Assembly (NCBI RefSeq): GCF_022811645.1
Contig: NZ_CP094534.1
Location: 2,542,001 to 2,606,000, forward strand
DNA length: 64,000 nt
Source: Hymenobacter monticola
GTDB lineage: Bacteria > Bacteroidota > Bacteroidia > Cytophagales > Hymenobacteraceae
Direction: 5' to 3'
Shown here: piece by piece, positions 3,400 through 63,863 of the stretch
Layout of the letters: the number at the start of each line of letters is the position of its first letter
Numbering within the stretch: the stretch's first letter is position 1
Position numbers and translations under genes: made by a program
Notes under the pieces: model-generated
The model's database searches: none
The model's input: the letters and a program-made list of their open reading frames with translations, nothing else
What the model was told of the DNA's origin: nothing

Positions 3400-3405
3400 A
3401 TGAGG

Positions 3406-3492
3406 TAGAGACGCATAATTGCGTCTCGTTGTTGAACGATGCACGAATTCGGTATTGGTCGTTCAACGACGAGACGCAATTATGCGTCTCTA
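3406..3492. repeat. Intergenic inverted repeat, GAGACGCA family
   Basis: An 87-base inverted repeat. Each arm contains TAGAGACGCATAATTGCG or its complement, itself palindromic, followed by a GTTGAACGA/TCGTTCAAC stem. A relative of the same family lies at 63768-63863. The right end (CTA at 3490-3492) supplies the TAG stop of the adenine deaminase gene. Confidence 0.85.
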
Positions 3493-5148
3493 CTCCACCG
3501 CGTCGACGAACGTAAACTGCTGGCCGTCGAACAAGCCTTTGTCGCTCAGCTTCAGGCTGGGAATGACCAGCAACGCCATGAACGAAAGCGTCATGAAAGG
3601 CGCGCCCAGCGGGGAGCCAAACTCCTTGGCCAGGGCATCGACGGCTGCGTAGGCTTCGGCCACAGACGGCCCGGGCTGGTCCGACATGAGGCCGGCCACG
3701 GGCAGGGGCACGAGGATTTCGCGGCCGTCGGCGCCCACCGCGGCCAGGCCGCCCTTGGCCTCGATGACGAGGTTGACGGCGCGGGCCAGGCGCTCGTCGT
3801 CGCAGCCCACGGCGGTGATGTTGTGCGAGTCGTGGCCCACGCTGCTGGCCAGCGCGCCGTGCTGCAGCCCAAAGCCGCGGATAAAAGCGAGTGCCGGCGC
3901 CGCGCCCGGCTGGTAGCGGTTGATGACAGCCAGCTTGAGCACATCGTCGGCCACGTTGGAAACCACGAAGCCGTTTTCAACCGAAGCTGGCAGGTCGACG
4001 CGGGCCGTGATGAGCTGCCCATCAAAGCACTCGATAACGCGGGCCGTGGGCTGAGCCGAAGTGGGCGCGGGCAGCTGAAACTCGGCGGCCGTCACGGGTT
4101 GGGCGTGGAAATTATTGACCACGGCTACAGGCGCGGCCGGCAGCAGAGACTTTCCGTTTTCGGCTACCAGCACGCCGTTGAGGTAGGTTTGCTGCACCTC
4201 GAAATCGCGAAGGTCTTTCACCACGATGAAGTCGGCCGGGTCGCCTTCGCCCAGCAGGCCCACGGGCAGGTTGTAGTGCTTCACGGGGTTCACGCAGGCC
4301 ACGCGCAGCACCTGAAATAAGTCATTGCCGAGCGCCACGGCCCGCTGCACCAGCTGGTTGATGTGGCCCAGCACCAGCGTGTCGGGGTGCTTGTCGTCGG
4401 AGCAGAACATGAGGTTGGCGTAGTGCTCGGGCAGCAGCTCAATCAGGGCGTCGAAGTTGCGGGCCGCCGAGCCTTCGCGGATGAGCACCTTCATGCCCAC
4501 GGCCAGCTTGTCGCGCGCCTCGGCGGCCGTGAAGCACTCGTGGTCGGTGCTGATGCCGGCGCTGGCGTAGTGGGCCGCGTCGTCGGCGCGCAAGCCGGGG
4601 GCGTGGCCGTCCACGGGCCGGCCGGCGGCCTGGGCAATGGCAATTTTCTGCATCACGTCGGCGTCGCGGTGCAGCACACCGGGCCAGTTCATCATCTCGG
4701 CCAGGTAGCCGATTTTGGGATTTTCGAACAGTCGGGCAATGTCCTGGGCTGTGATTTCGGCGCCGGCTGTCTCAAACGGCGTGGCCGGCACGCAGCTGGG
4801 CGCCCCAAAGCAGAACTTGAAAGGGGAGTGGCTGGCGTTTTCGAGCATGAATTCCACGCCGGCCACGCCCAGCACGTTGCCAATTTCGTGTGGGTCGCTC
4901 ACGGTTGCCACCGTGCCGTGCGTCACGGCTAGGCGGGCAAACTCGGTGGGCACTAGCAGCGAGCTTTCCACGTGCACGTGGGCATCCACGAAGCCAGGCA
5001 GCACGTAGGGAAGGGCCGGGTCGGCCTCGGCCTCATCGATGGGCGCAATGCTGGCGATGCGGCCGCCCTCCACCGAAACAATGGCGGGCTGAATGGAACG
5101 GGCGAAAACGTCGACGACGTTGGCCGTGAGCGAAAAAGCGGGAGTCAT
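3490..5148 (-). CDS. ade: Adenine deaminase
   Basis: Seen: 552 residues, normal for the family, starting MTPAFSLTANVVDVFA. The amidohydrolase metal motif VLPGFVDAHVHVESSLL is near 48-64, followed by VSDPHEIGNVLG, VDGHAPGL and the late motif MFCSDDKHPDTL. The C-terminal region has the GHDSHNI motif typical of this family. Known: metal-dependent hydrolysis of adenine to hypoxanthine and ammonia in purine salvage, cytosolic. It is transcribed alone, convergent with nothing; the next minus-strand gene begins 7 bases beyond the repeat that ends this one. Its TAG stop lies in that repeat. Confidence 0.93.
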   Translation of the reverse strand: MTPAFSLTANVVDVFARSIQPAIVSVEGGRIASIAPIDEAEADPALPYVLPGFVDAHVHVESSLLVPTEFARLAVTHGTVATVSDPHEIGNVLGVAGVEFMLENASHSPFKFCFGAPSCVPATPFETAGAEITAQDIARLFENPKIGYLAEMMNWPGVLHRDADVMQKIAIAQAAGRPVDGHAPGLRADDAAHYASAGISTDHECFTAAEARDKLAVGMKVLIREGSAARNFDALIELLPEHYANLMFCSDDKHPDTLVLGHINQLVQRAVALGNDLFQVLRVACVNPVKHYNLPVGLLGEGDPADFIVVKDLRDFEVQQTYLNGVLVAENGKSLLPAAPVAVVNNFHAQPVTAAEFQLPAPTSAQPTARVIECFDGQLITARVDLPASVENGFVVSNVADDVLKLAVINRYQPGAAPALAFIRGFGLQHGALASSVGHDSHNITAVGCDDERLARAVNLVIEAKGGLAAVGADGREILVPLPVAGLMSDQPGPSVAEAYAAVDALAKEFGSPLGAPFMTLSFMALLVIPSLKLSDKGLFDGQQFTFVDAVE

Positions 5149-7679: not shown

Positions 7680-7778
7680 AACGTCTGTCATCCCGAGCGC
7701 AGCAAAGGACCTTCTCACATTGGAACGACTTGTTCTTCAGTGAAAAGGTTCTTCGCTGCGCTCGGGATGACAGACGTT
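7680..7778. repeat. Intergenic inverted repeat, TGTCATCCCGAGCGCAGC family
   Basis: Arms AACGTCTGTCATCCCGAGCG... and ...CGCTCGGGATGACAGACGTT enclose shorter complementary blocks (GGACCTTCTCAC against GTGAAAAGGTTC). It sits between the convergent ispH and macro-domain genes and may serve as a terminator. The similar element at 9568-9674 shares the GAGCGCAGCRAAG core. Confidence 0.85.
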
Positions 7779-9534: not shown

Positions 9535-9567
9535 GTTAGTTTTGCGGCCGGAAGAACATTGTGCAGA

Positions 9568-9674
9568 AGAACGTCATGCAGAGCGCAGCGAAGCATCTTT
9601 ACCGTAACAGTAACCCAATCGACAGGAATTACTTCTGAGGTAGAGATGCTTCGCTGCGCTCTGCATGACGTTCT
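9568..9674. repeat. Intergenic inverted repeat, GTCATGCAGAGCGCAGCG family
   Basis: Arms AGAACGTCATGCAGAGCGCAGCGAAGCATCT (first 15 bases AGAACGTCATGCAGA) and its exact complement, 31 bases each, are separated by about 45 bases. It lies between the RimB-like gene and rimK and shares its core with 7680-7778. Confidence 0.88.
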
Positions 9675-9754
9675 TGCATTTCCCACCCGCCACCTTACCT
9701 CGTCCCACCCGCCCTTTCTCCACCCCCTCACCACCTCCACCCAATCCACCCCCG

Positions 9755-10728: not shown

Positions 10729-10913
10729 AACTCCCCTCCTTACCAACCGAAGGTCGGCGAAGCCAAGGAGGGGATGCCGGCGCAAAGCGCCGGCTGGTGG
10801 TTGTGGGCGTTGAATGGCAGGCACAGCAATAGTACTTCCATCGTTCAACGCCCACAACCACCCCCGTCCGAGCCTGCGGCTCGAACATCCCCTCCTTGGT
10901 AAGGAGGGGAGTT
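10729..10913. repeat. Long composite inverted repeat (185 bases)
   Basis: Outer arms AACTCCCCTCCTTACCA and TGGTAAGGAGGGGAGTTT; inner pair GTGGTTGTGGGCGTTGAA and TTCAACGCCCACAACCAC; between them small hairpins such as CCGGCGCAAAGCGCCGG. It lies between rimK and the carboxypeptidase gene, so the transcript linking them would fold strongly here. Confidence 0.85.
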
Positions 10914-23216: not shown

Positions 23217-23311
23217 GTAGCGTGGACTCTGCGAGTCCGCGCCCGCCCGAACGACACCCCAACAATACCTGACCAGCGCTTGAAAACGCGGACTCGCAGA
23301 GTCCACGCTAC
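23217..23311. repeat. Intergenic inverted repeat, GTAGCGTGGACTCTGCGAG family
   Basis: Arms GTAGCGTGGACTCTGCGAG... and its complement, 25 bases each, around a loop of about 45. It lies between kdpA and kdpB in the operon. The same element, with a shorter loop, is at 31117-31189, and a decayed copy seems to lie at 29141-29236. Confidence 0.9.
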
Positions 23312-27770: not shown

Positions 27771-27910
27771 TTCAACCCCACCCCCTGCCCCTCCCCTCTG
27801 GGGGAGGGGGCTGAATATCATCCGTCAATTACCCTTCACTCATTATTCAGTATTCAATTCTTTACTTGGCTCCCCTCCCCCAGAGGGGAGGGGCCGGGGG
27901 TGGGGTTGAA
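27771..27910. repeat. GC-rich two-arm inverted repeat (CCCTCCCC family, variant 1)
   Basis: Arms TTCAACCCCACCCCCTGCCC... and ...GGGGGTGGGGTTGAA, each about 38 bases and each itself a C-run/G-run palindrome (CCCTCTGGGGGAGGGG), enclose an AT-rich centre of about 60 bases. It begins 3 bases after the porin stop and ends 12 bases before the KdpD-like start. Related to the elements at 43-51 kb. Confidence 0.88.
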
Positions 27911-29090: not shown

Positions 29091-29296
29091 GGCGCTTCAC
29101 CCCCTCCCCCTCTCCCAAAGGAGAGGGGGAGCCTGGTAGTATTTAGTGTGAGTTTCACATGTCCGCGCTTTGCATAGAATGACCAAATATTCTTAATTAA
29201 ATCGTCCACATGCGGACTCATAGAGTTCACACCACACAACCTGCGCCGCCTCGGCTCCCCCTCTCCTTTGGGAGAGGGGGCCGGGGGTGAGGCGCC
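29091..29296. repeat. Nested inverted repeat (CCCTCCCC family, variant 2)
   Basis: Outer arms GGCGCTTCACCCCCTCCCC... and ...GGGGGTGAGGCGCC with the palindromic core CTCCCAAAGGAGAG. Inside, 29141-29236 is AT-richer and itself an imperfect inverted repeat (GTGTGAGTTTCACATGTCCGCG against CATGCGGACTCATAGAGTTCACACC), resembling a decayed copy of the GTAGCGTGG family. Confidence 0.8.
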
Positions 29297-31120: not shown

Positions 31121-31189
31121 CGTGGACTCTGCGAGTCCGCGCCTGTCTGCATTGTTCGCCCGGGCGCGGACTCGCAGAGTCCACGCTAC
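31117..31189. repeat. Intergenic inverted repeat, GTAGCGTGGACTCTGCGAG family
   Basis: Arms GTAGCGTGGACTCTGCGAG... and complement around a 21-base loop. Both ends hold TAG in opposite directions and thereby stop both convergent genes: the kinase at 31118-31120 and the VOC gene at 31186-31188. Confidence 0.9.
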
Positions 31190-41943: not shown

Positions 41944-44900
41944 CTACTCCCGCTCCAGCACCTGCCGGATGCCGCCCAGGCCGCTCGAAATATTCTCCAG
42001 CTGCGTGAGCACGCTGTGCAACTGGCCGCCGCTGCTGGTGCGCAGGTTGCGCACGAAAGTGGCTTTGATGGCTTCCCAGCGGGCTTTTTCCTCGGGCGTG
42101 AGCCAGCCCAGCAGCTCGTGTAGCTTGAGCAGGTTGGCCTCGGTGCCGCTGGTCAGGGTTTGGGCTTCGTTGTCGTAGTGGGTGGCCAGGAGGGTTTTTA
42201 CTTCCTCGTCGTTCATCACGGGGCGCACCTTTTCGGCCAGCTTGGCCATGTTGCGGTAGGAGCCCTGCAGCTTGAAGGGCGGTTCGGTGCGGTACTCGTT
42301 GGCCTGCGCCGCCGAGCGGATGTACTCCTCGTTCACGCGGGCCACCACGTCGCGGATGCCTAGCAGCTTCTGCAGCACAGCCACGTACTCGTTGATTTCG
42401 GCAGGGGAGTGGTTGGCCTCGAAGGTGAGGCTGGTGCTGTCGCCGGTTTCGGCCAGCTTGATGAGCGGGTACACGTCGGCCTGGCTTTTGGCGGCGAGGC
42501 GGCTGAGCACGGGGTTGGCCACCAGCGAGTTTTCCACGTAGCTGAGCAGGAAGGTGTCGGCCGTGTCGCCGATGATGTCGCCGAGGTTGTAGATGTCGGC
42601 GCGGTTGGCCAGCATGTCGGGAATGCGGAACTGCTCGCCCGATTCCGTGTAGGGGTTGCCGGCCATCACCACGGCCACCTTGCGGCCCCGGAAATCGTAG
42701 GTGCGGGCGCGGCCCTGGTACACGCCCTCAATCTTGCGCTGGGCGTCGCAGAGCGAGATGAATTTCTGCAAAAATTCGGGATTGCAGTGCTGAATATCAT
42801 CGAGATATATCATCACGTTGTCGCCCATCTCGAAGGCCAGGTTCAGCTTCAGCAGCTCCTCGCGGGCACCGGAGTTGGGCGCCTGAGCGGGGTCCACGCT
42901 CGTCACGGCGTGGCCGATGGCCGGGCCGTTGATTTTCATAAAAATCAGCCCCAGGCGGTTGGCCACGTACTCCATGAGCGTGGTTTTGCCGTAGCCAGGC
43001 GGCGACACCAGCAGCAGCAGGCCCATGAGGTCGGTGCGCTTGTCGGCCCCCGCCGTGCCGATTTGCTTGGCGAGGTTGGCCCCGATGAGCGGCAGATACA
43101 CCTCATCAATCAGCTTGTTCCGCACAAACGATGAGAGCACGCGCGGCCGGAACTCCGCCAGCCGCAGCTCCTCGGCGAAGCGCGCCACCAACTCCTTTTT
43201 CAGCGTCCCAAACGACTCAAACAGCGGCACCACCGAGCGCACGTAGTGGTGCAGTCGCCGCCGGAACTCGGGGAAATGCAGCTGATAGCTCCGCTCATGA
43301 ATGCGGGCGTGCGAGCCCTGCAGGCCGGTGAGGGTTTCGTGCAAGGGCGTGCGGATGATGCGCGCGGGGTCGAAGGTGGCAGTTATTAGCAGCGTCGCCG
43401 CTTCGTTCACCCCGTTAACCCCATCCCCCGGCCCCTTCCCCTCCTGGGGAAGGGGAGCCGAGGCGACGCTGAAAGTTGAGTTCGTCAGGCTCCCCTCCCC
43501 CGGAGGGGAGGGGCTGGGGGTGGGGTTTGGGTGCCGCACAAACGCCCCCAGCCACTGCCGCACCAGCTGGAACTGCGCGGCCGGCTGGTCGGCTAGCGCG
43601 GCCACGCTGGCTTCGTATTGCGGCGTGGCGTTGCGCTCCTTCAGCGACTGCTGGAACTGCTGGTACAGGTCGGCGGCTTCGGGGGCGATGACGAAGGTTT
43701 CGCCGCGGGTCAGCTCCTGAAACAGGTAGTCGCCAGCCTCGGCTACTTCGGGGAGGGTGAATAAGCTAGTGCCGGTAGCAAACTCCTCCACGGCCAGCTG
43801 CAACTCGGCTTTCAGGGGCTCGAACTCGCGGGAATCGGGGAAAACCTGGAGCAGGATGCCAATGCCCTGTAGCTGCTGCTGCCAGGCGGCCTTGCGCTTG
43901 CGGCCCGCGAAGCGCTGCCAGTAGAGCGCGGCGGCGGCGCGGGCGTTGGCCGGGTAGCGCAGCAAATCGGCGGTGCGGGTGAGGCGCACCAGCGCTTCGA
44001 GCAGCAGGGCGGCGTCGTGGTCGTGCACACCTTTGAGGTAGCCCTCGGCGTAGCGCGGGGCCATAAACTGCTGTACGTAAATAGTCAGCTCGGCCACGGT
44101 GAGGTGCGAGAGCTCAGCCAGCGACAGCACGGCCGCCGTGCCGGGCTGCGCCGGCGCGGGCCGCTGGGCCGCCTGCAAAATCAGCCAGGCCAGGTACTCG
44201 GCGCGGTACACGTCGGCGTTTTCCGACACCACCGTTTGGTCCCACACAGCGCGGGCGGCCAGGAAGGCAGGCTCGGTTATTTTCTGGAAGAAATTGGTGC
44301 CCGTGAGGTGGTAGTGTAGGTCGCCGTCGCGCAGTACTACGGTCAGGTCCAGCGGCTGGGTGTTGACGGTGAAGGCGTAGGGGCCGAATTTCAGGGCCTG
44401 GCCGCCGTCGGTAAACAGCTCGGCGCGGTCCTTGAGCTGGCGCACAGCGTCTTCCTTCACCGTTTTGAGGCGGCTCTGAATGTCGTCGGCCTTCACCGGG
44501 TCGCCGAGGCTGACCAGCTCCTGCACGGTCTGGCGCACCTTTTCCACCATCAAATCCGACGCGAAATAGCCGTTGATGTCGGCCACCGTTTCGAAGCGGC
44601 CCAGCCGGTTTTGCACCGCTTTCAGAATGCGTTCGGCCGATTGCAGCAGCGCCGAAGCCCGCTGATTCCGGGCCTCTACCAGCCCCACCTTGCGCGACTC
44701 AAACGCCTCCGAAACCTCCTCGCGCTTGCCCGCCAGCTGCACCAGAAACTGGTCAAATTCCGGAAATTTGCCTTCCAGCTCCTCCAGCTGCACCAGCAGC
44801 TTGGTACTGTACTCGTCGCAGCGGGCGGGCGTGTCGCACAGGTCCAGGTAGTTCACCAGCGCTTGGTCGAGGAGCTTGATTTGGGCCGTGAATTCGGCCT

Positions 44901-47022
44901 GCGCCTCGGTGCCGGCCAGGGCCTGCCGCCGCCGTTTCAGCGCCGCCCGAATCTGGTTGAAGCTGGCGTAAATCGTCGAGATGTTGTCGATGATGCGCGT
45001 GGTTTGCGTGGGGTCGGGCATCGGCAGGTTGCTCACCACCTCAATCAGCAGCTCCAGCTCGCTCGAAACCGCGTTGGCCAGCTTTTCCTGCTCGTTGGCT
45101 TCGGCCACTTTCTGCACCTTCTCAATGGCCTCGGCAATGGCCTGCACGCGCACGGTGTAGGGCTTCAGCGCGTCGGGCTTCAGCAGGAAATCCACCGTTT
45201 GGGCGGCCACGTCCTTGCTGGTTTGCTCCAGGTCGGCGGCGGCTTTTTCCACGGTGGGCAGCTCCACGTAGCGCAGCTCTTTTAGGGAAATGACCTCGCC
45301 GCGCACCGTGCGCAGCTCCGCCAGCATCTGCACGAACTCGTTCACGTCGGTGGCCGTGGTGCGCTTGATGCGGCCGGTCAGCTCGTCGGCTTTGGCCAGC
45401 ACGCGCTGGGTTTCGGCGTCGGTGCTTTTGCGGATGCTTAGCACTTTGTCGAACTCCTCAACCGCCGCATTAGCTGCCTGCTGAATGTCGCGCAGCGGCT
45501 CGGCCAGCGCTTGAGCGGCCGGCTCGCGCAGCCAGTGGTAGGTGTCGGTGAGGGTGGTGGTGAGGCGAATCAGGTCGAGGTAGAGGCCGGCGTAGCTGTC
45601 GTCTTTGCTGAGCAGCGTCAGTACCTCCTGCGTTTCGGCCATAGCCCGCACTATTTCTTTGTTGCCCAGCTTGTAGAGGTAGGAGCCAGAAGTGACGGGC
45701 AGCTCAAAATCGGGCGCTACATAGGGCGTTTGCCAAATTTGTACCGCATGGTGCTTCTTCGGCTCATCATCCTTGCGGAAATAGCACAGCTCGCCGTTTT
45801 CAAACAGTGCGTAGCCGTGGCAATTAATGGGGTTTTCAACCCGCTGCGCGATGATGTTATAGGAAAATAATAAATACGCGCCGCTGTCCTTATTGTAGAA
45901 AACATACAGGGAATCTTCGCCGTTGGGCGAGGCTACGCGCTTCTCAAACAGCATGTCGCGCAGGCCGTTGTCAAATAATTTTCCCTCGCCGGTTTGCAGG
46001 TAAAAACCGTGCGAAAATATGAGTCCCTGGCCGTCGGGCAGCAGCACGCAGGCATCGGCCAGCGCGTCCAGGCGCTGCGCTGTTTGCTGCTTGGAGTTGT
46101 AAATGAAATACCGGTAATCGGGCTCCTGATAGGGCCGGATTTTCAGCAGAATTAAGTTACCGACAATGGCGTAATAAATCTCCGAATCGTCGAGCGTCTG
46201 GTCCTTATCGGCCACCGGCTCGGCGTAAATGCCGCGACCGGTGGCGGTGTTGTCCTCCACTTTGATGGTGAGGTCGCCGCCGATGGTTTCGACAAAAACC
46301 CGGTCCTCGATGCTGATGTGCGGGTGTTTGCCGCTCCGCTGCATGTCGCGCGTGGTGCGCTTCCAGGTGAACTCGTGCTGCGGCGGGTACACGTATTCGT
46401 GGTCGCTGCGGTTGTCGATGTAGGTCAGTGCCTCGTTCTGCAACAGCCACTTGAACGTCTTGATGTCGTTCACACTTTTGCCCACCCGAAACACCATGAA
46501 CAGGTGGTTGCCGAGCACCGCGAATTTTACGAACTGCGTGTTCTTGTAATAACGGTACAGGTCGCGGAATTCGCCGGCAAACTGCGCGTTATTAATCAGG
46601 TCCAGCGGCAGCGGCTGAAACTCGTGGTTCACGTAATTATAGGCCCCGAAAACATCGGATAATTCCACCTCCGTTTTCAGGCCCAGCACCACGTTGAAGC
46701 CGAAGAGAAATTTATCGCCCACCGGCACCATGTCCCACGGCACGCAATTGTGCTCGGTGGTGATGCGCCCGGTCCCAATCAGCTTGGTATCAATCGCGCC
46801 AAACACCGTTTTGCGCTCGGCGTTCAGCTTGTCGAGGCGGGCTTTGAGGTCGGCGCCGCTCTTGTGCAGGCGGTTGCGCAGGATTTCGTAGGTGCCGCCT
46901 TCGAGTTGGACGCCGTTGACCCCATCCCCCGGCCCCTTCCCCTCCGGGGGAAGGGGAGCCGAGGCGGCGCGGGTTTTTTCTTTTTCGTTGGTAATGGCGG
47001 GGTTATTGCTATCGGGGCTCAT
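41944..47022 (-). CDS. Very large AAA+ ATPase of the DUF3686 / 'DNA repair ATPase' family
   Basis: Seen: 1692 residues from ATG 47022. N-terminal beta-propeller-like region about 40-450 (DUF3686-like, FIYNSKQQTAQRLDAL style blades), a coiled-coil rich middle about 450-850, a helical region to about 1290, and one AAA+ module about 1310-1600 with Walker A SPPGYGKTTL near 1341 and Walker B MIYLDDIQ near 1406, then AGNPYTESGEQFRIPDMLANRAD. Known: database name is DNA repair ATPase but proof is lacking; members sit beside PspA, flotillin and YqiJ genes. Odd: residues ~19-37 and ~1166-1203 are translated repeat elements. An upstream start (47055) is possible. Last gene of the cluster. Confidence 0.88.
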   Translation of the reverse strand: MSPDSNNPAITNEKEKTRAASAPLPPEGKGPGDGVNGVQLEGGTYEILRNRLHKSGADLKARLDKLNAERKTVFGAIDTKLIGTGRITTEHNCVPWDMVPVGDKFLFGFNVVLGLKTEVELSDVFGAYNYVNHEFQPLPLDLINNAQFAGEFRDLYRYYKNTQFVKFAVLGNHLFMVFRVGKSVNDIKTFKWLLQNEALTYIDNRSDHEYVYPPQHEFTWKRTTRDMQRSGKHPHISIEDRVFVETIGGDLTIKVEDNTATGRGIYAEPVADKDQTLDDSEIYYAIVGNLILLKIRPYQEPDYRYFIYNSKQQTAQRLDALADACVLLPDGQGLIFSHGFYLQTGEGKLFDNGLRDMLFEKRVASPNGEDSLYVFYNKDSGAYLLFSYNIIAQRVENPINCHGYALFENGELCYFRKDDEPKKHHAVQIWQTPYVAPDFELPVTSGSYLYKLGNKEIVRAMAETQEVLTLLSKDDSYAGLYLDLIRLTTTLTDTYHWLREPAAQALAEPLRDIQQAANAAVEEFDKVLSIRKSTDAETQRVLAKADELTGRIKRTTATDVNEFVQMLAELRTVRGEVISLKELRYVELPTVEKAAADLEQTSKDVAAQTVDFLLKPDALKPYTVRVQAIAEAIEKVQKVAEANEQEKLANAVSSELELLIEVVSNLPMPDPTQTTRIIDNISTIYASFNQIRAALKRRRQALAGTEAQAEFTAQIKLLDQALVNYLDLCDTPARCDEYSTKLLVQLEELEGKFPEFDQFLVQLAGKREEVSEAFESRKVGLVEARNQRASALLQSAERILKAVQNRLGRFETVADINGYFASDLMVEKVRQTVQELVSLGDPVKADDIQSRLKTVKEDAVRQLKDRAELFTDGGQALKFGPYAFTVNTQPLDLTVVLRDGDLHYHLTGTNFFQKITEPAFLAARAVWDQTVVSENADVYRAEYLAWLILQAAQRPAPAQPGTAAVLSLAELSHLTVAELTIYVQQFMAPRYAEGYLKGVHDHDAALLLEALVRLTRTADLLRYPANARAAAALYWQRFAGRKRKAAWQQQLQGIGILLQVFPDSREFEPLKAELQLAVEEFATGTSLFTLPEVAEAGDYLFQELTRGETFVIAPEAADLYQQFQQSLKERNATPQYEASVAALADQPAAQFQLVRQWLGAFVRHPNPTPSPSPPGEGSLTNSTFSVASAPLPQEGKGPGDGVNGVNEAATLLITATFDPARIIRTPLHETLTGLQGSHARIHERSYQLHFPEFRRRLHHYVRSVVPLFESFGTLKKELVARFAEELRLAEFRPRVLSSFVRNKLIDEVYLPLIGANLAKQIGTAGADKRTDLMGLLLLVSPPGYGKTTLMEYVANRLGLIFMKINGPAIGHAVTSVDPAQAPNSGAREELLKLNLAFEMGDNVMIYLDDIQHCNPEFLQKFISLCDAQRKIEGVYQGRARTYDFRGRKVAVVMAGNPYTESGEQFRIPDMLANRADIYNLGDIIGDTADTFLLSYVENSLVANPVLSRLAAKSQADVYPLIKLAETGDSTSLTFEANHSPAEINEYVAVLQKLLGIRDVVARVNEEYIRSAAQANEYRTEPPFKLQGSYRNMAKLAEKVRPVMNDEEVKTLLATHYDNEAQTLTSGTEANLLKLHELLGWLTPEEKARWEAIKATFVRNLRTSSGGQLHSVLTQLENISSGLGGIRQVLERE
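43417..43527. repeat. GC-rich two-arm repeat inside the AAA+ coding sequence
   Basis: Complete two-arm element: AACCCCATCCCCCGGCCCC... on one side and ...GGGGCTGGGGGTGGGGTT on the other, with GAGTTCGTCAGGCTCCCC between. It is read in frame as about 37 residues (NPTPSPSPPGEGSLT, then APLPQEGKGPGDGVNGV) at ~1166-1203 of the ATPase, between two helical parts. Confidence 0.9.
46917..46966. repeat. Single repeat arm near the N-terminus of the AAA+ gene
   Basis: One arm of the same family (GACCCCATCCCCCGGCCCC...GGGGGAAGGGGAGCC), in frame as APLPPEGKGPGDGVNGV, residues about 19-37. Only this arm is present. Confidence 0.88.
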
Positions 47023-47503
47023 AATTAGGGTAGAGGACAGCCAAATGCTCGGCAATTGTCTTTAACACTTTTGGGGTGTTATGCAGGACCTCCTCGTTGG
47101 TGAAGCGGAGGACCAGGAAGCCATACTCCTGCAATTCGTGGGTGCGGCCGCCGTCGTATTCGGCCTGGCTTTCGTCGCCATGGATGCTGCCGTCGACTTC
47201 AACAATCAGCCACGCGGCGAGGCATACAAAATCCACAATGAAAGACTCGATGGCGTGCTGGCGGCGAAAAGGCGCGTTCAGCTTATTGCCGCGCAGTTCT
47301 TGCCAAAGGTGGTTTTCGGCGGGCGTGGGATGCTTGCGGTTGTGCTGGGTGTAGGCTTTGAGGGACGTTTTCCAGCGCTTGGCGTCGGTGGTAAACATGC
47401 CGAAGGGGTAGACCTCAGCCCCGTTAACCCCATCCCCCGGCCCCTTCCCCTCCGGGGGAAGGGGAGCCCGACGACTATCGTCCGAAATTTCGTCAGCACT
47501 CAT
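47009..47503 (-). CDS. DUF559-domain (Vsr-like endonuclease fold) protein
   Basis: Seen: up to 164 residues. Residues about 50-160 are a DUF559 domain: HPTPAENHLWQELRGNKL, FRRQHAIESFIVDFVC, LIVEVDGSIHGDESQAEYD and LRFTNEEVL, including the acidic-Glu-Val-Asp-Gly core of PD-(D/E)XK/Vsr-like nucleases. Known: DUF559 proteins resemble very-short-patch repair nucleases, activity mostly untested. With the ATG at 47503, residues 13-28 are repeat-encoded (APLPPEGKGPGDGVNGA); with ATG 47398 the repeat is leader. Its 3' end overlaps the ATPase start by 14 bases. Confidence 0.82.
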   Translation of the reverse strand: MSADEISDDSRRAPLPPEGKGPGDGVNGAEVYPFGMFTTDAKRWKTSLKAYTQHNRKHPTPAENHLWQELRGNKLNAPFRRQHAIESFIVDFVCLAAWLIVEVDGSIHGDESQAEYDGGRTHELQEYGFLVLRFTNEEVLHNTPKVLKTIAEHLAVLYPNYEPR

Positions 47504-47606
47504 GACGTGACTTATTCAAACAAAAAAGAAGAACAAACTACTGCCAACCGTCCGTGCCGCCTCGGCTCCCCTTCCCCCGGAGGGGAAGGGGCCGGGGGAT
47601 GGGGTT
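47425..47606. repeat. GC-rich two-arm inverted repeat
   Basis: Arms TAACCCCATCCCCCGGCCCC... (47425-47467) and ...GGGGCCGGGGGATGGGGTTT (47564-47606), the complement, with about 95 AT-richer bases between. The right arm meets the TAA of the flotillin gene at 47606-47608; the left arm lies in or just before the DUF559 reading frame. Confidence 0.9.
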
Positions 47607-49771
47607 TACAACTGCAGCGTCTTCGCCGGCTTATCCCCAATGCCCAACGCCTTGGCTGTGCTGGCCAGCTGCGCGATGGTGCCGCGCGTGGACTCGTCGC
47701 CGGCCTTATTCATCATTTGCAGCAGCAGGGCCGACACGCTCAGGTTCTTCATGTCCTCGCTGCTCAGACCGAACTTATCCACGAAGCGGCGCAGGTTGGT
47801 TTTGAAATCCCCGTCGCCGTCGTGGCCGAAGAAGGCGTCTTTCACGGTGCCTAGCACTTCGGAATTGTGCACGGCGCGGTCCACCATTTTGCCCTTGGTG
47901 ATGGAGCCGATAATCTGGTCGAAGAACATGGTTTCGCCGCCCACGATGTCGATTTTGGCCGACTTCAGGGCTTCTGAAATTACGCCAGCCTGAGCGCCGG
48001 CAATGTCTTTCTGGATGTTGATTTGGGCCAGCTCCACCGACTTTTCCTTGTCGAGGCGCAGCTTGAATTCCTCGTGGTCTTTGCCCACGCCGTCGAGCTT
48101 CTTCATGGCGTCAGCCTTGGCTTCGATGCCCTTGGCTTCCACGGCAAAGCGCTGCTCGTTCACGGTTACTTCGGCCAGGCCACGCTTCTGGTCGGCGTCG
48201 GCTTTGGCTTCGATGACGCTGGCTTCGGCCAGGCCTTTTTCGCGGTTCACCTTAGCGGCCACCACGCCCAGCTTCTCGTCGGCCTCGGCCTGGGCCGTGG
48301 CTTTCGCCTGGATGGCCTGTGCCTCGGCCGTGGCGGTTAGCTGCAACACGTTGGCTTCGGCCTCGCCTTCTTTCTGGCGGGCGGTGGCTTTGGCCTGCAT
48401 CACCTGGGCCTCGGCCAGGCCCACGGCGCTGGCTTTGCTGGCCTCGGCTTCGGCCATGATGCGCATGGCCTGCGAGCGGTGCTCCGACGAAGCTTTCTCG
48501 GCTTCGGCATCAATCAGCGACTGCTTGGCGCGGAATTCGGCGGCCTGCTTGGCCATGTCGGCGTTGCCGACCAGCGCAATGGTGGCCTGCTCGGTTTCCT
48601 GCTGGGCCTTGGTCACGGCCACCAGCTTTTCGCGGTCGGCCGCGGCCTGGGCGCGGGTGTCTTTAATGCGCTCTTCCTCAATTACCGTGGCTTTTTCTAC
48701 CGTAATGCGCTCGCGGATGATGCTCTGAATATTCTTGCGCTCCTCTTCTAAGGCCTTTTCTTTTTCAATCTGGGCCAGGGCCACGATGCGCTCCCGCTCG
48801 TTGATTTCGAGAGAACGGGCCTGCTCCACGCGCTCGGTTTCCACGGCATCGGTGCGCTGCTTGTTGCGCTCGGCCACCAGGATTTGCCGGTCGCGGTTTT
48901 GCTCCGAAATCTTGATTTCCTCGTCGGCGGCAATACGGGCTTTTTCGCCTTTCATGCGCTCTTCCTGGCGTACTTTCTCGGTTTCGGCCGCTTCCCGGGC
49001 CTTGATGTTGGCAATTTCGCGGAACTGCTTTTCCTGGTTTTCGGCCAGCTGCTTTTCAAGCTGCAGAATGGTTTCCTGCGCCTCCACGTCCTGCTTCTTG
49101 ATGGTTTTCTGTTGGTCGCGCTGAATCTGGTTGGCCTGAATTTTCTGCTCCGAGGTCAGGGCAATAATCTTCTTGATACCTTCGGCGTCCAGAATGTTGT
49201 CCTGGTTCAGCGCCTGCAAGGGCGTCTGTTCCAGATAGTCAATGGCGCAGTCGTCAAGCACATAGCCGTTCAAGTCGGTGCCGATGATGCGCAGAATCTC
49301 CTGCTTGAACTGCTCGCGGGAGTTGTAGAGCTCGATGAAGTCGAAGTGCTTGCCCACCGTTTTCAGGGCTTCCGAAAACTTGGCGTCGAACAGGCTTTCG
49401 AGCGCCAGCGGGTCGGAGGCGCGGTGCGCGCCGATGCTCTGGGCCACGTTTACCACGTCCTCGTGGGTTTTGTTGACGCGGATGAAGAAGTTCACCTTCA
49501 CGTCGGCCCGCAGGTTGTCTTTGCACACCAGCCCTTCGGAGCCGGCGCGGGAGATGACGATGGTTTTCAGCTTGATGTCCATCAGCTCCAGCTTGTGCAG
49601 GATAGGCACCACGATGATGCCGGAGAAGGACACCTTGGCGTCGCCCATGCCGGTGCGCAACAGGGCCTCGCCCTGCACGGCTTTCTTGTACATTTTGGCG
49701 ATAACTGACAAAAAACCAAGGAGAAACAGGCCGACGATAATCAGGACGGCCCAGGAAAGGGATGCTAGCAT
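47606..49771 (-). CDS. Flotillin / SPFH-domain protein (YqiK-like)
   Basis: Seen: 721 residues. N-terminal membrane segment 4-26 (LSWAVLIIVGLFLLGFLSVIA), SPFH/Band-7 domain about 30-200 (ALLRTGMGDAKVSFSGIIVVPILHKLE), then a very long Glu/Ala/Lys/Arg coiled coil about 200-610 (QEKQFREIANIKAREAAE). The C-terminal part holds the flotillin-type IGSITKGKM region. Known: YqiK/flotillins organise membrane microdomains; E. coli YqiK lies beside YqiJ, as here. Inferred: forms a large membrane-bound cage or scaffold with the PspA and AAA+ partners. TAA stop abuts the repeat. Confidence 0.93.
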   Translation of the reverse strand: MLASLSWAVLIIVGLFLLGFLSVIAKMYKKAVQGEALLRTGMGDAKVSFSGIIVVPILHKLELMDIKLKTIVISRAGSEGLVCKDNLRADVKVNFFIRVNKTHEDVVNVAQSIGAHRASDPLALESLFDAKFSEALKTVGKHFDFIELYNSREQFKQEILRIIGTDLNGYVLDDCAIDYLEQTPLQALNQDNILDAEGIKKIIALTSEQKIQANQIQRDQQKTIKKQDVEAQETILQLEKQLAENQEKQFREIANIKAREAAETEKVRQEERMKGEKARIAADEEIKISEQNRDRQILVAERNKQRTDAVETERVEQARSLEINERERIVALAQIEKEKALEEERKNIQSIIRERITVEKATVIEEERIKDTRAQAAADREKLVAVTKAQQETEQATIALVGNADMAKQAAEFRAKQSLIDAEAEKASSEHRSQAMRIMAEAEASKASAVGLAEAQVMQAKATARQKEGEAEANVLQLTATAEAQAIQAKATAQAEADEKLGVVAAKVNREKGLAEASVIEAKADADQKRGLAEVTVNEQRFAVEAKGIEAKADAMKKLDGVGKDHEEFKLRLDKEKSVELAQINIQKDIAGAQAGVISEALKSAKIDIVGGETMFFDQIIGSITKGKMVDRAVHNSEVLGTVKDAFFGHDGDGDFKTNLRRFVDKFGLSSEDMKNLSVSALLLQMMNKAGDESTRGTIAQLASTAKALGIGDKPAKTLQL

Positions 49772-49785
49772 ATTCGTGGAATTTA

Positions 49786-49940
49786 CCTCATCCCCCGGCC
49801 CCTTTCCCCGGAGGGGAAGGGGAGCCAGACGAAGAGCTTTTGTAAAAGGTTTTGAATAAAAGAGATGGTTAGAAGACGTCGTCTAAATTTTTGTCAGGCT
49901 CCCCTTCCCCTGGAGGGGAAGGGGCCGGGGGATGGGGTTA
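49786..49940. repeat. GC-rich two-arm inverted repeat
   Basis: Arms ACCTCATCCCCCGGCCCC... (about 49786-49831) and ...GGGGCCGGGGGATGGGGTTA (49893-49940), separated by about 60 AT-rich bases. The last TTA is the stop codon (TAA) of the YqiJ-like gene on the minus strand. Confidence 0.9.
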
Positions 49941-50591
49941 AGAAGTCTGGTAAGGCTCCACCAAATAGCAGCGCCGGGCCGCGTCAAAGTCAATCACCAG
50001 CCCGGTTTCGCCCTTGCGAAGCGGGGCGCTGGTGCTGCGGATATTGAGCATGAGCGGGGCGCCGTCGATGCGGACGGATGCCTGGCCGAGGTGGTCGGCG
50101 GTGGCGGGCAGCAGCACGGTGCACACCTTGCCGATGACTACGGCGCCGCCGTCATGGTCCTTTTCGAGGGCGGTGAAGAGCTTCACGAAAGGCAGCGTGA
50201 GGAATTTGGCCACGAACAGGCTGCCGACGAACAGCGGCAGTAGAAAGGCCAGCCCGAGCAGGAGGGAAGTGTTGCCGGTGTAGTAATTGGCCAGAATGCT
50301 GCCCGCCCACAGCGGCAAAAACACGAAGCTGAGGAACACCATCAGCGGGATGCGGCCCAGGTTGAAGAAGGCCAGCGCGCCGTTGAGCCAGCCGGCGGGG
50401 GCGTCGTGGTGCAGGTCGCCGGGGTGGTGGAAGTGGCCGTGGTCGTCCACCTCCAGGTCAAGGTCCACCGTTTTCATGTCCAGCACACCCACAATCACCG
50501 TGAGCCAGTAGAGCAACACGAACACCAACAAGCCGGTGGGCACCAGATTGGGCGGAGCAATGGCAGCTTTTAAAAGGTCGGTCATGGGCAT
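49938..50591 (-). CDS. YqiJ-like (DUF1449, OB-fold) membrane protein
   Basis: Seen: 217 residues from ATG 50591. Three hydrophobic segments: 14-36 (LVPTGLLVFVLLYWLTVIVGVL), 78-98 (IPLMVFLSFVFLPLWAGSIL) and 104-125 (LLLGLAFLLPLFVGSLFVAK). His-rich loop HGHFHHPGDLHHD between 1 and 2. A C-terminal OB-like beta domain follows (GGAVVIGKVCTVLLPATADHLG). Known: YqiJ/DUF1449 proteins partner flotillins of the YqiK type, similar to NfeD. Starts at 50597 (GTG) or 50585 are possible. It stops in the repeat. Confidence 0.9.
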   Translation of the reverse strand: MPMTDLLKAAIAPPNLVPTGLLVFVLLYWLTVIVGVLDMKTVDLDLEVDDHGHFHHPGDLHHDAPAGWLNGALAFFNLGRIPLMVFLSFVFLPLWAGSILANYYTGNTSLLLGLAFLLPLFVGSLFVAKFLTLPFVKLFTALEKDHDGGAVVIGKVCTVLLPATADHLGQASVRIDGAPLMLNIRSTSAPLRKGETGLVIDFDAARRCYLVEPYQTS

Positions 50592-50654
50592 ATGCACGGC
50601 AGCTTAAAGGTAGGAGAATTGAGAGAACTCCGTGGGCGGCCCGGCCCGTTTTGC

Positions 50655-51362
50655 TTATTCGGTGTAGCCAAGCTTCGCTTTTAGGGCTTTGAGGTCTTCG
50701 CTGGCTTTGCTGGCACCGGTGCTGCCGAGGGCCTTGTCAATTTCGGCGTCGATGCTTTTGCCAGACTGGGCAATTTCGCCGTACGATTCGGCCAGGGCCT
50801 CCTGCACGGCAATCTTTTCCTTCATGCGCTCAAGCAGCGCCACCGTGCCCGACGAGTCGAGCTGAGCCATCTGCTTGTTGATGGCGATGGTGGCGGTGCT
50901 CACCGTCACGCGGGCCTTCAGGGTTTTCAGCTCGTTTTCCCACTGGCTGATGGTTGTTTTCAGCGTGGCCACGTTCTGGTCCATCTGGGCGGCCGACTGC
51001 TCAAACTTTTCCTGGTCTGAAGCGGCGCGGGCGGCCTGGGCTTCGTTTTCGGCCTTCTTGAGCAGGGCTTCGCCAGCCAGCCGGTCGGCTTCGGCGGCGT
51101 CCAGCTCGCCGCGGTGGGCGCGCTGCAGCAGGAGCACAGCCTTGCTCTCGTAGTCGGCCGCTTTGGTGCGGAAGCCCTCGCCCTCGTTGCGGGCCCGGAT
51201 GGCCATGGCCTTCACTTCGGCCAGGCCGTGCAGGCTTTTGTCGAGGTCCTGGCGCAGGTCGCGCAAGCCCTGCTCGGTCATTTTGATGGGGTCTTCAAGC
51301 TGGTTGACGGCCGCGTGGGCTTCCGACTGGCCGATTTTGAAGAGGCGGTTGAGGATGTTCAT
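50655..51362 (-). CDS. pspA: PspA/IM30-family protein
   Basis: Seen: 235 residues, nearly all helical: MNILNRLFKIGQSEAHAAV amphipathic N-terminus, EDPIKMTEQGLRDLRQDL, then a long coiled coil rich in Glu/Ala/Lys and a small C-terminal helix (LKALKAKLGYTE). Known: PspA/Vipp1 ESCRT-III-like proteins bind stressed membranes. Inferred: the membrane-repair effector of this cluster. It lies 63 bases before YqiJ without a repeat between, so this pair has normal operon spacing. Confidence 0.93.
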   Translation of the reverse strand: MNILNRLFKIGQSEAHAAVNQLEDPIKMTEQGLRDLRQDLDKSLHGLAEVKAMAIRARNEGEGFRTKAADYESKAVLLLQRAHRGELDAAEADRLAGEALLKKAENEAQAARAASDQEKFEQSAAQMDQNVATLKTTISQWENELKTLKARVTVSTATIAINKQMAQLDSSGTVALLERMKEKIAVQEALAESYGEIAQSGKSIDAEIDKALGSTGASKASEDLKALKAKLGYTE

Positions 51363-51404
51363 GGCGTTGATGTTTAAGATGATAGTTTAATTTTCGGCTA
51401 CGAT

Positions 51405-51530
51405 AACCCCACCCCCGGCCCCTCCCCTCGTGGGGAGGGGAGCCTGACGGCTTAATGAATTCTTCAGCTGACATCTGCTGACGTCTGGCTCCCCTTCCCC
51501 CGGAGGGGAAGGGGCCGGGGGATGGAGTTT
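51405..51530. repeat. GC-rich two-arm inverted repeat
   Basis: Arms AACCCCACCCCCGGCCCC... and ...GGGGCCGGGGGATGGAGTTT separated by about 37 bases, between the PspA start (51362) and the YbjN-like stop (51537). A transcript linking the two genes would carry this hairpin. Confidence 0.88.
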
Positions 51531-63767: not shown

Positions 63768-63863
63768 GCACGATGTAGAGACGCATATTTGCGTCTCGTC
63801 GTCCGCGCAAATCGGCTCATTTCGTTCATCGACGAGACGCAAATATGCGTCTCTACATCGTGC
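63768..63863. repeat. Intergenic inverted repeat, GAGACGCA family
   Basis: Arms GCACGATGTAGAGACGCATA... and complement. The core GAGACGCATATTTGCGTCTC (20 bases) is itself palindromic. Same family as 3406-3492, with ATTTG in place of AATTG. Lies between the NmrA-like and M16 genes. Confidence 0.88.

Follow-up and report, generated by a model that had tools for sequence, protein, structure and literature searches.

The palindromic arms in this window, by which we mean the whole 64,000-nt stretch of the Hymenobacter monticola genome that was analysed, have a nuclease as their partner. We argue that they form a REPIN-like system in which a homing-type DUF559 nuclease is the driving enzyme, and we put a probability of about 0.7 on this reading. 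The arms and the DUF559 gene are associated, and loci that have the two side by side occur in five phyla. That the nuclease moves the arms is what we infer.

The arm is a C/T-stem hairpin that consists of AACCCCATCCCCCGG, the hairpin CCCCTTCCCC/GGGGAAGGGG and then AGCC. Most of the arms lie in one cluster. The AAA+ (DUF3686) gene (41944..47022, minus strand) has two in-frame arm insertions. One is a pair inside the gene, with arms at 43417..43459 (+) and 43488..43527 (-). The other is a single arm (46919..46960, +) fused in frame at the N-terminus as residues 22-38. An arm within the DUF559 reading frame (47426..47468, +) gives the peptide APLPPEGKGPGDGVNGA, and another (47564..47606, -) reaches with its outer end to the stop codon of a 721-aa gene that lies upstream. 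One pair is upstream of that gene (49785..49826, +, which is slightly degenerate, and 49897..49939, -) and one is upstream of the PspA gene (51405..51444, +, and 51487..51528, -). A related pair of the CCCCTCCCC subtype is at 27774..27811 (+) and 27868..27907 (-). Another pair (29100..29131, +, and 29257..29280, -) is of the CCCCTCTCC subtype, a subtype that also adjoins the genome's second DUF559 gene (L114). Every arm in the first-pass annotation was found where it had been placed, including the single arm and the variants, and the peptides it quoted are indeed in frame, two of them in the AAA+ gene and one in the DUF559 ORF. It overlooked a two-arm copy of a different subtype, CCCCTCCTT, at 10732-10910. 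The first arm of this copy is at 10732..10774 (+), the loop holds extra sequence, and the second arm (10888..10910, -) is identical to an arm of L145. L145 is the genome's third DUF559 gene, which is flanked by the CCCCTCCTT subtype.

The claimed crowding of copies is also real. With up to 2 mismatches CCCCGGCCCCTTCCCC has 10 matches in the window against 0.37 expected, and 0 of 100 shuffles reach 10. The window has 14 strict pyrimidine-stem hairpins, 8 of them within 43.4-51.5 kb, and each of 10 shuffles has 0. The exact core CCCCGGCCCCTYCCC occurs 16 times in the 6.12-Mb genome, and 7 of these are in the 8-kb cluster stretch. The TTCCC form of the core occurs 7 times in the whole genome, 6 of them inside the same stretch. 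Six cluster-bearing genomes (G000, G009, G023, G034, G042 and G044) have 26 of 27 TTCCC cores inside the cluster among the matches listed, a tally that leaves aside one of the 11 core matches of G044 and assigns G023 its cluster solely because its spacing resembles that of L074. The TTCCC arm subtype is locally confined. Subtypes such as CCCCTCCTT..AAGGAGGGG are listed at many genomic places. Folding was compared with shuffles for three two-arm copies and the single arm, with the pair at 49785-49939 left out. The two-arm copies fold far better than their shuffles (z of -7.5, -9.2 and -11.4) and the single arm has a z of only -1.9. Known RNA families have no match in the window at gathering score.

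A G-quadruplex motif (four runs of at least 4 G, 1-2 nt apart) is present in nine arms, from 27776 to 51427. Inverted pairs of another family (AACGTCTGTCATCCCGAGCGCAGC, AACGTCATGCAGAGCGCAGCGAAGCATC) are found at 7680-7778 and 9567-9675, and these resemble the CGTC type by eye only. Two further inverted-repeat families have copies that are distant from each other in the window: GTAGAGACGCA..TGCGTCTC at 3402-3493 and 63768-63863, and GTAGCGTGGACTC..GAGTCCGCG at 23217-23252 and 31154-31189.

The DUF559 gene of the cluster (47009..47503, minus strand) encodes a single-domain nuclease (PF04480) whose N-terminus reads through an arm. It scores 104.8 bits against PF04480, which has a curated cut-off of 20.6. 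The fold of its predicted model is that of the homing endonuclease I-Bth0305I and Vsr, of PD-(D/E)XK type, and the protein keeps conserved acidic and histidine residues of the EDxHD / I-Bth0305I catalytic domain. Among the known defence families in PADLOC there is no match for this protein and there are two weak matches for that of L145. The DUF559 unit is present in 7 of 12 near relatives and absent in 5. An intact domain is found at the cluster in L005-L008, L012, L018, L023 and L074. All 8 of these relatives have strict hairpins in the fetched stretch, between 2 and 6 each. The fetched stretches of L009, L021, L059 and L010 have zero, and all four lack the unit. There are two exceptions. 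L025 has arms though there is no DUF559 gene in its cluster, and the cluster of L011 has a broken DUF559, arms of another subtype and no strict hairpin.

This co-occurrence extends across the genus. PF04480 has 241 matches in 103 of 120 Hymenobacter genomes, with 0-6 per genome. We looked for C/T-stem hairpins around the gene, within 300 nt. The best-match loci, one per genome, have a hairpin within this distance in 30 of 30 cases and on both sides in 20. Twenty lower-scoring loci have one in 16 cases by the strict definition and in all 20 with an 8-bp stem. Taken together, a hairpin adjoins the gene at 50 of the 50 loci sampled from the 241 matches (stem 8), with arms on both sides at 37 and identical nearest left and right cores at 14. 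Control stretches ~50 kb away, all offset from a DUF559 gene except for one offset from a RAYT gene, give 0/20 strict and 1/20 relaxed. A generic inverted-repeat score of at least 40 across the gene is reached at 27/29 and 16/20 Hymenobacter DUF559 loci and at 0/20 shifted loci. We dropped this score as a test because RAYT loci reach it too (18/26, with repeats of another kind) and a Bacteroidota draw of DUF559 loci reaches it in only 6/23. The partner of the arms is the DUF559 nuclease, which the first-pass annotation treated only as a gene that contains the repeat.

The adjacency is not limited to Hymenobacter. In the Bacteroidota draw a hairpin is found at 20 of 28 DUF559 loci by the strict definition, at 24 with an 8-bp stem, and at 21 when the stem is 7 bp and the window narrower. 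In two further Bacteroidota genomes a hairpin is present at 2 of 5 loci and absent at the other 3. In Planctomycetota it is present at 13 of 17 strong DUF559 matches versus 0 of 13 weak, helicase-type matches. For plasmids we chose 10 of 37 DUF559 records (6 Pseudomonadota, 2 Deinococcota and 2 Cyanobacteriota). A hairpin is present at 9 of these, and the locus without one is from one of the two cyanobacteria. One plasmid site is between sufB and sufC and another is between paaD and paaZ. A Photobacterium plasmid (L326, 1892-3321) has 14 hairpins in 1.4 kb adjoining a DUF559 gene, many of them ~147 nt apart.

The type of arm follows the phylogeny of the nuclease. Four arm classes on the tree of 50 Hymenobacter DUF559 domains, which leaves out the short L091, need 4 changes where the minimum is 3. 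The shuffled mean is 16.4 and 0 of 200 shuffles are as low, although orthologous copies inflate this result. The number of arms goes with the nuclease of the matching type, whereas the other type has little bearing on it. D arms are present in 55 of 55 genomes that have a D nuclease, with a median of 23. Genomes without a D nuclease have a median of 2, with none in 27 of 65 and some in 38. When 3 own arms are subtracted the median is 20 (p 1.8e-9). D arms correlate with the D nuclease (rho 0.63) and hardly with other nucleases (0.15, p 0.11), and the remaining arms correlate with other nucleases (rho 0.57) and hardly with the D nuclease (0.12, p 0.18). In these comparisons a D nuclease is a best E of 1e-24 or lower, a line that was set after the gap was seen, and some copies in the set (G006, G034, G038 and G046) carry a stop or are split. 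A phylogeny-aware test on a 48-genome tree of one helicase has 9 independent pairs, of which a mean of 5.8 go the same way and 0.1 the opposite way. The median p is 0.031 with a range of 0.008-0.375, and the phylogeny-corrected support is modest. When the data are recoded as presence or absence of any extra D arm there are too few differences for significance. Over all types, arm number correlates with DUF559 number at rho 0.59 versus 0.41 with RAYT number (partial 0.57 and 0.36), with the reservations that overlapping matches are counted more than once and that the reversed control pattern is not clean in G114 (94), G087 (19) and G036 (15). These three genomes seem to carry another repeat that fits the reversed pattern.

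One can imagine a scenario where DUF559 is a passenger. Some transposase or recombinase would spread the hairpins, and the nuclease would merely land or be kept beside them, or would have been domesticated and use the arms as sites. The nuclease gene is indeed stable in its place. Among the 50 Hymenobacter domains all pairs with at least 80% identity share genomic place and flanks, so the gene has not been seen jumping. Arms also persist without it, since the 17 genomes that lack DUF559 still have 2 to 215 arm matches, and for REPs, local amplification without the transposase has been proposed (PMC8049555). What this scenario finds hard to explain is the type-specific matching of arms and nucleases together with an adjacency that recurs in five phyla. 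We consider it unlikely, but it is one of the two most serious competitors.

The other is about history, and here the DUF559 domains embedded in host proteins are informative. In-frame copies are found in leucyl-tRNA synthetase (L187), methionine synthase (L206/L237), HsdR (L191), a type ISP enzyme (L185), a DNA methylase reading frame (L186), a UvrD-type helicase (P0004) and a PD-(D/E)XK protein (L232). They lie between or within the Pfam domains of the host and have arm-like peptides on one or both sides; L187 has the arm-like peptides only and no hairpin. Pfam lists DUF559 and other domains in the 7 host reading frames and no intein domain. The helicase is present in 120 of 120 Hymenobacter genomes, which allows one loop to be followed. 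G005, G109, G038, G098 and G063 have a full in-frame element in this loop, and in G061 and G092 the element has a broken frame. The loop is 498 nt in G005 versus 3-9 nt in seven near relatives, and it is 18 nt in H. monticola itself. Of 20 further genomes, 17 of which were picked on hints of extra sequence, 18 could be measured (in L285 and L286 the contig ends). Nine of the 18 have two hairpins, 2 have one hairpin and a two-arm-like peptide, and the rest are short or remnants. All 18 gaps are multiples of three. Thus one loop occurs in three states: empty, two-armed and full.

On the helicase tree these states need 11 changes, and each of the six full elements is a separate change. This count scores the unclear remnants (L270, L272, L274, L275, L280 and L284) as empty and the one-hairpin rows (L288 and L289) as two-armed. 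At the same time, a single clade of the DUF559 copies in the helicase is not rejected (AU p 0.19), and the states fit repeated gain and repeated loss alike. The common ancestor of the helicase copies also covers two other rows, in G074 and G059. These lie ~4 and 8 kb from the helicase gene, which again hints at spread over short distances. A MITE or IS element would show terminal inverted repeats and a target-site duplication, and would come with a transposase. For the arms the ends are GCCTCACCCCCC/GGGGGGTGAGGC, and no clear target-site duplication was found at the one helicase site examined, for which L267 had no anchors.

The second competitor would have a single ancient insertion per place, which was then lost many times. 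There would be no recent movement, and the likeness of arms within a genome would come from gene conversion. The single helicase clade is compatible with this. So is the cluster itself, since DUF559 can occupy that place with arms of a different subtype, as in L011, and L012 and L018 also have DUF559 there. It sits poorly with the helicase tree, on which the states need 11 changes and each full element is a change of its own. It also sits poorly with the pairs upstream of the 721-aa and PspA genes, which are filled in few lineages among arm-free relatives. The first pair (49785-49939) is present in 3 of 12 near relatives and the place is arm-free in 9. The second (51405-51528) is present in 2 of the 10 near relatives that have the anchors and arm-free in 8. 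We do not favour old insertion with loss, and we hold it to be about as improbable as the passenger scenario.

It is very doubtful that the arms are ordinary REP or REPIN elements moved by a RAYT, that is, by a Y1 tyrosine transposase, an idea behind the first-pass annotation's suggestion to look for a RAYT/TnpA-REP transposase. The anatomy is the same, with two inverted hairpins and a variable spacer. A Y1_Tnp match is present in 83 of 120 Hymenobacter genomes, and arm number does correlate with RAYT number. The RAYT genes themselves speak against it. Arms are found at 0 of 30 Hymenobacter RAYT loci, each of them the top match in its genome, and at 0 of 4 loci of the genome's own Y1 genes, and we reject RAYT as the partner. 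The inverted repeats that RAYT loci do carry are different ones: many of the Hymenobacter RAYT genes (L115-L144) have a set of their own beside them, without C/T-stem arms.

The arms in the AAA+ gene are DNA insertions. Eighty related AAA+ loci were collected, and all but L069 and L079 were aligned. Only 6 of these 78 have residues 22-38, all of them Hymenobacter, and in relatives without this peptide the protein begins shortly before QLEGGTYEILRN. The internal loop has a two-arm peptide in 16 of the 78. Seven of these (L005-L008, L023, L025 and L074) have arms like those of the window, and nine (L012, L018, L019, L022, L024, L026, L036, L042 and L044) have other arm sequences in the identical loop. 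Since the frames were read from stop to stop, arm peptides that are 5' of the start codon elsewhere (e.g. L018, L022 and L030) may be untranslated. The same conclusion comes from the DNA. Among 12 near relatives the loop is filled in 7 and short in 5, and the N-terminal arm and the DUF559 unit are jointly missing in L009, L021, L025, L059 and L010. The peptides are missing from most homologues and the DNA from near relatives, so the arms are real insertions that are translated as short peptides. In this respect the earlier idea of a REP-like palindrome that enters genes as an open frame holds, since the result that would have refuted it, the same peptides in every homologue, did not come up. 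Tolerance in protein loops is enough to account for the peptides, with no need for them to be a useful module. That they are conserved sequence of the AAA+ and DUF559 proteins can be rejected with near certainty, for although open reading frames pass through them, most homologues do without them and different arm sequences fill the same loop elsewhere. In L006, L007, L011 and L023 a second short palindrome of the CGCCGCTTGATGCGCGGAATCC type lies in the loop of single arms, apparently as a nested insertion. Planctomycetota homologues L075, L077 and L078 have longer inserts of a different sequence at the same AAA+ loop.

It is worth comparing the arms with known systems. REPINs are described as multicopy repeats that amplify locally and consist of two hairpin arms in inverted orientation, separated by a variable spacer, and their RAYT partner as a gene of few copies that is vertically inherited and flanked by the repeats, with more repeats where it is present (PMC8049555; PMC3733652). 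The C/T arms likewise form two inverted hairpins with a variable spacer. DUF559 has few copies per genome and is vertically inherited, as its shared flanks indicate, and genomes with DUF559 have more arms. By this analogy the arms and DUF559 would work like REPIN/RAYT. The partner differs, as RAYT is an HUH tyrosine transposase whereas DUF559 is predicted to have the PD-(D/E)XK fold of Vsr and I-Bth0305I. We do not file the system as REPIN/RAYT because the defining RAYT was tested for and is absent. We regard it as new in kind because its partner comes from an unrelated enzyme class; it would be less so if the nuclease were a passenger.

Other palindromes share single traits with the arms. Rickettsia palindromic elements are ~150-bp palindromic repeats that are found in frame in unrelated genes (PMC10969869). 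The habit of in-frame insertion is alike, with no sequence link to the arms shown. RPE-4 and RPE-6 are equated with CGTC repeats, for which a 2013 survey reports that a dedicated transposase is apparently lacking (PMC3733652). The arms differ from these in that they have a partner gene. In two Xanthomonas species the same survey noted REPs at much the same position of recB, and it describes CGTC-tagged REPs with a terminal CGTC and an 8-9 bp stem that begins with A/T pairs (PMC3733652). The arm stems are instead C/T runs that start with C, though the detector itself requires C/T stems. TGACG or GACGA is found within 14 nt of 30/105 Hymenobacter hairpins versus 8/210 shuffled sides. It is nearly absent from the other hairpin sets (1/60, 0/34 and 1/26), so we do not regard CGTC as a tag that the arms share in general.

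The nuclease has relatives of its own. It is like I-Bth0305I and the EDxHD enzymes in its predicted fold and its acidic and histidine residues. It is unlike them in that no intron or intein was seen here; the DUF559 gene is instead flanked by arms at its sides and may be translated within a host protein. A homing endonuclease would cut the empty allele and be copied into it; what is seen here is one helicase loop in full, two-armed and empty form. Caulobacter VsrA is a Vsr-like DUF559 protein with the same domain. Genetic evidence makes it responsible for the SOS response on loss of ScmA methylation, and it was interpreted as mismatch repair (PMC12907096). The words 'inverted repeat' and 'palindromic' do not occur in the main text of that paper (PMC12907096). 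A search of titles and abstract openings, mostly outside subscription journals, found no publication that ties DUF559 to palindromic repeats, though an earlier description of the tie may exist.

The scenario we prefer for the homing-type nuclease would run as follows. A DUF559 gene bordered by hairpin arms would be the full element, from which the two-arm copies would derive as non-autonomous forms. The nuclease gene would be a long resident at one place while arm copies spread, those of the TTCCC subtype mostly within a few kb. The nuclease would recognise the arms and cut at or near target and arm sites, and repair would fill the break with a copy of an arm pair close by or of the entire element. 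Copies with a length in threes and an open frame would survive inside protein loops, which would be a matter of survivorship. A step of cutting and repair would fit the lack of a clear duplication, the occupation of one site in many species, the alike arms of each genome and the short-range spread. We can go further and suggest that DUF559 nucleases as a family power a selfish system that is present in five phyla or more. Nuclease genes with hairpin arms would spread themselves and their short palindromic derivatives by cutting and repair and not by transposition, and would leave unspliced in-frame inserts in host proteins, like an intein without splicing. We think the odds of this wider claim are about even.

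Many palindromic repeats have no known enzyme, and the tie to a homing-type nuclease is a concrete candidate mechanism that can be tested. It would give a role to the DUF559 nucleases, a poorly understood family. It would also account for odd peptides that recur in annotated proteins, which would be inserted DNA, among them the nuclease domains within tRNA synthetase, methionine synthase and UvrD-type helicase. Even if the mechanism should fail, the nuclease gene and the hairpins are still found together in five phyla. Together, the arms and DUF559 look like a type of selfish DNA system that has gone unrecognised until now.
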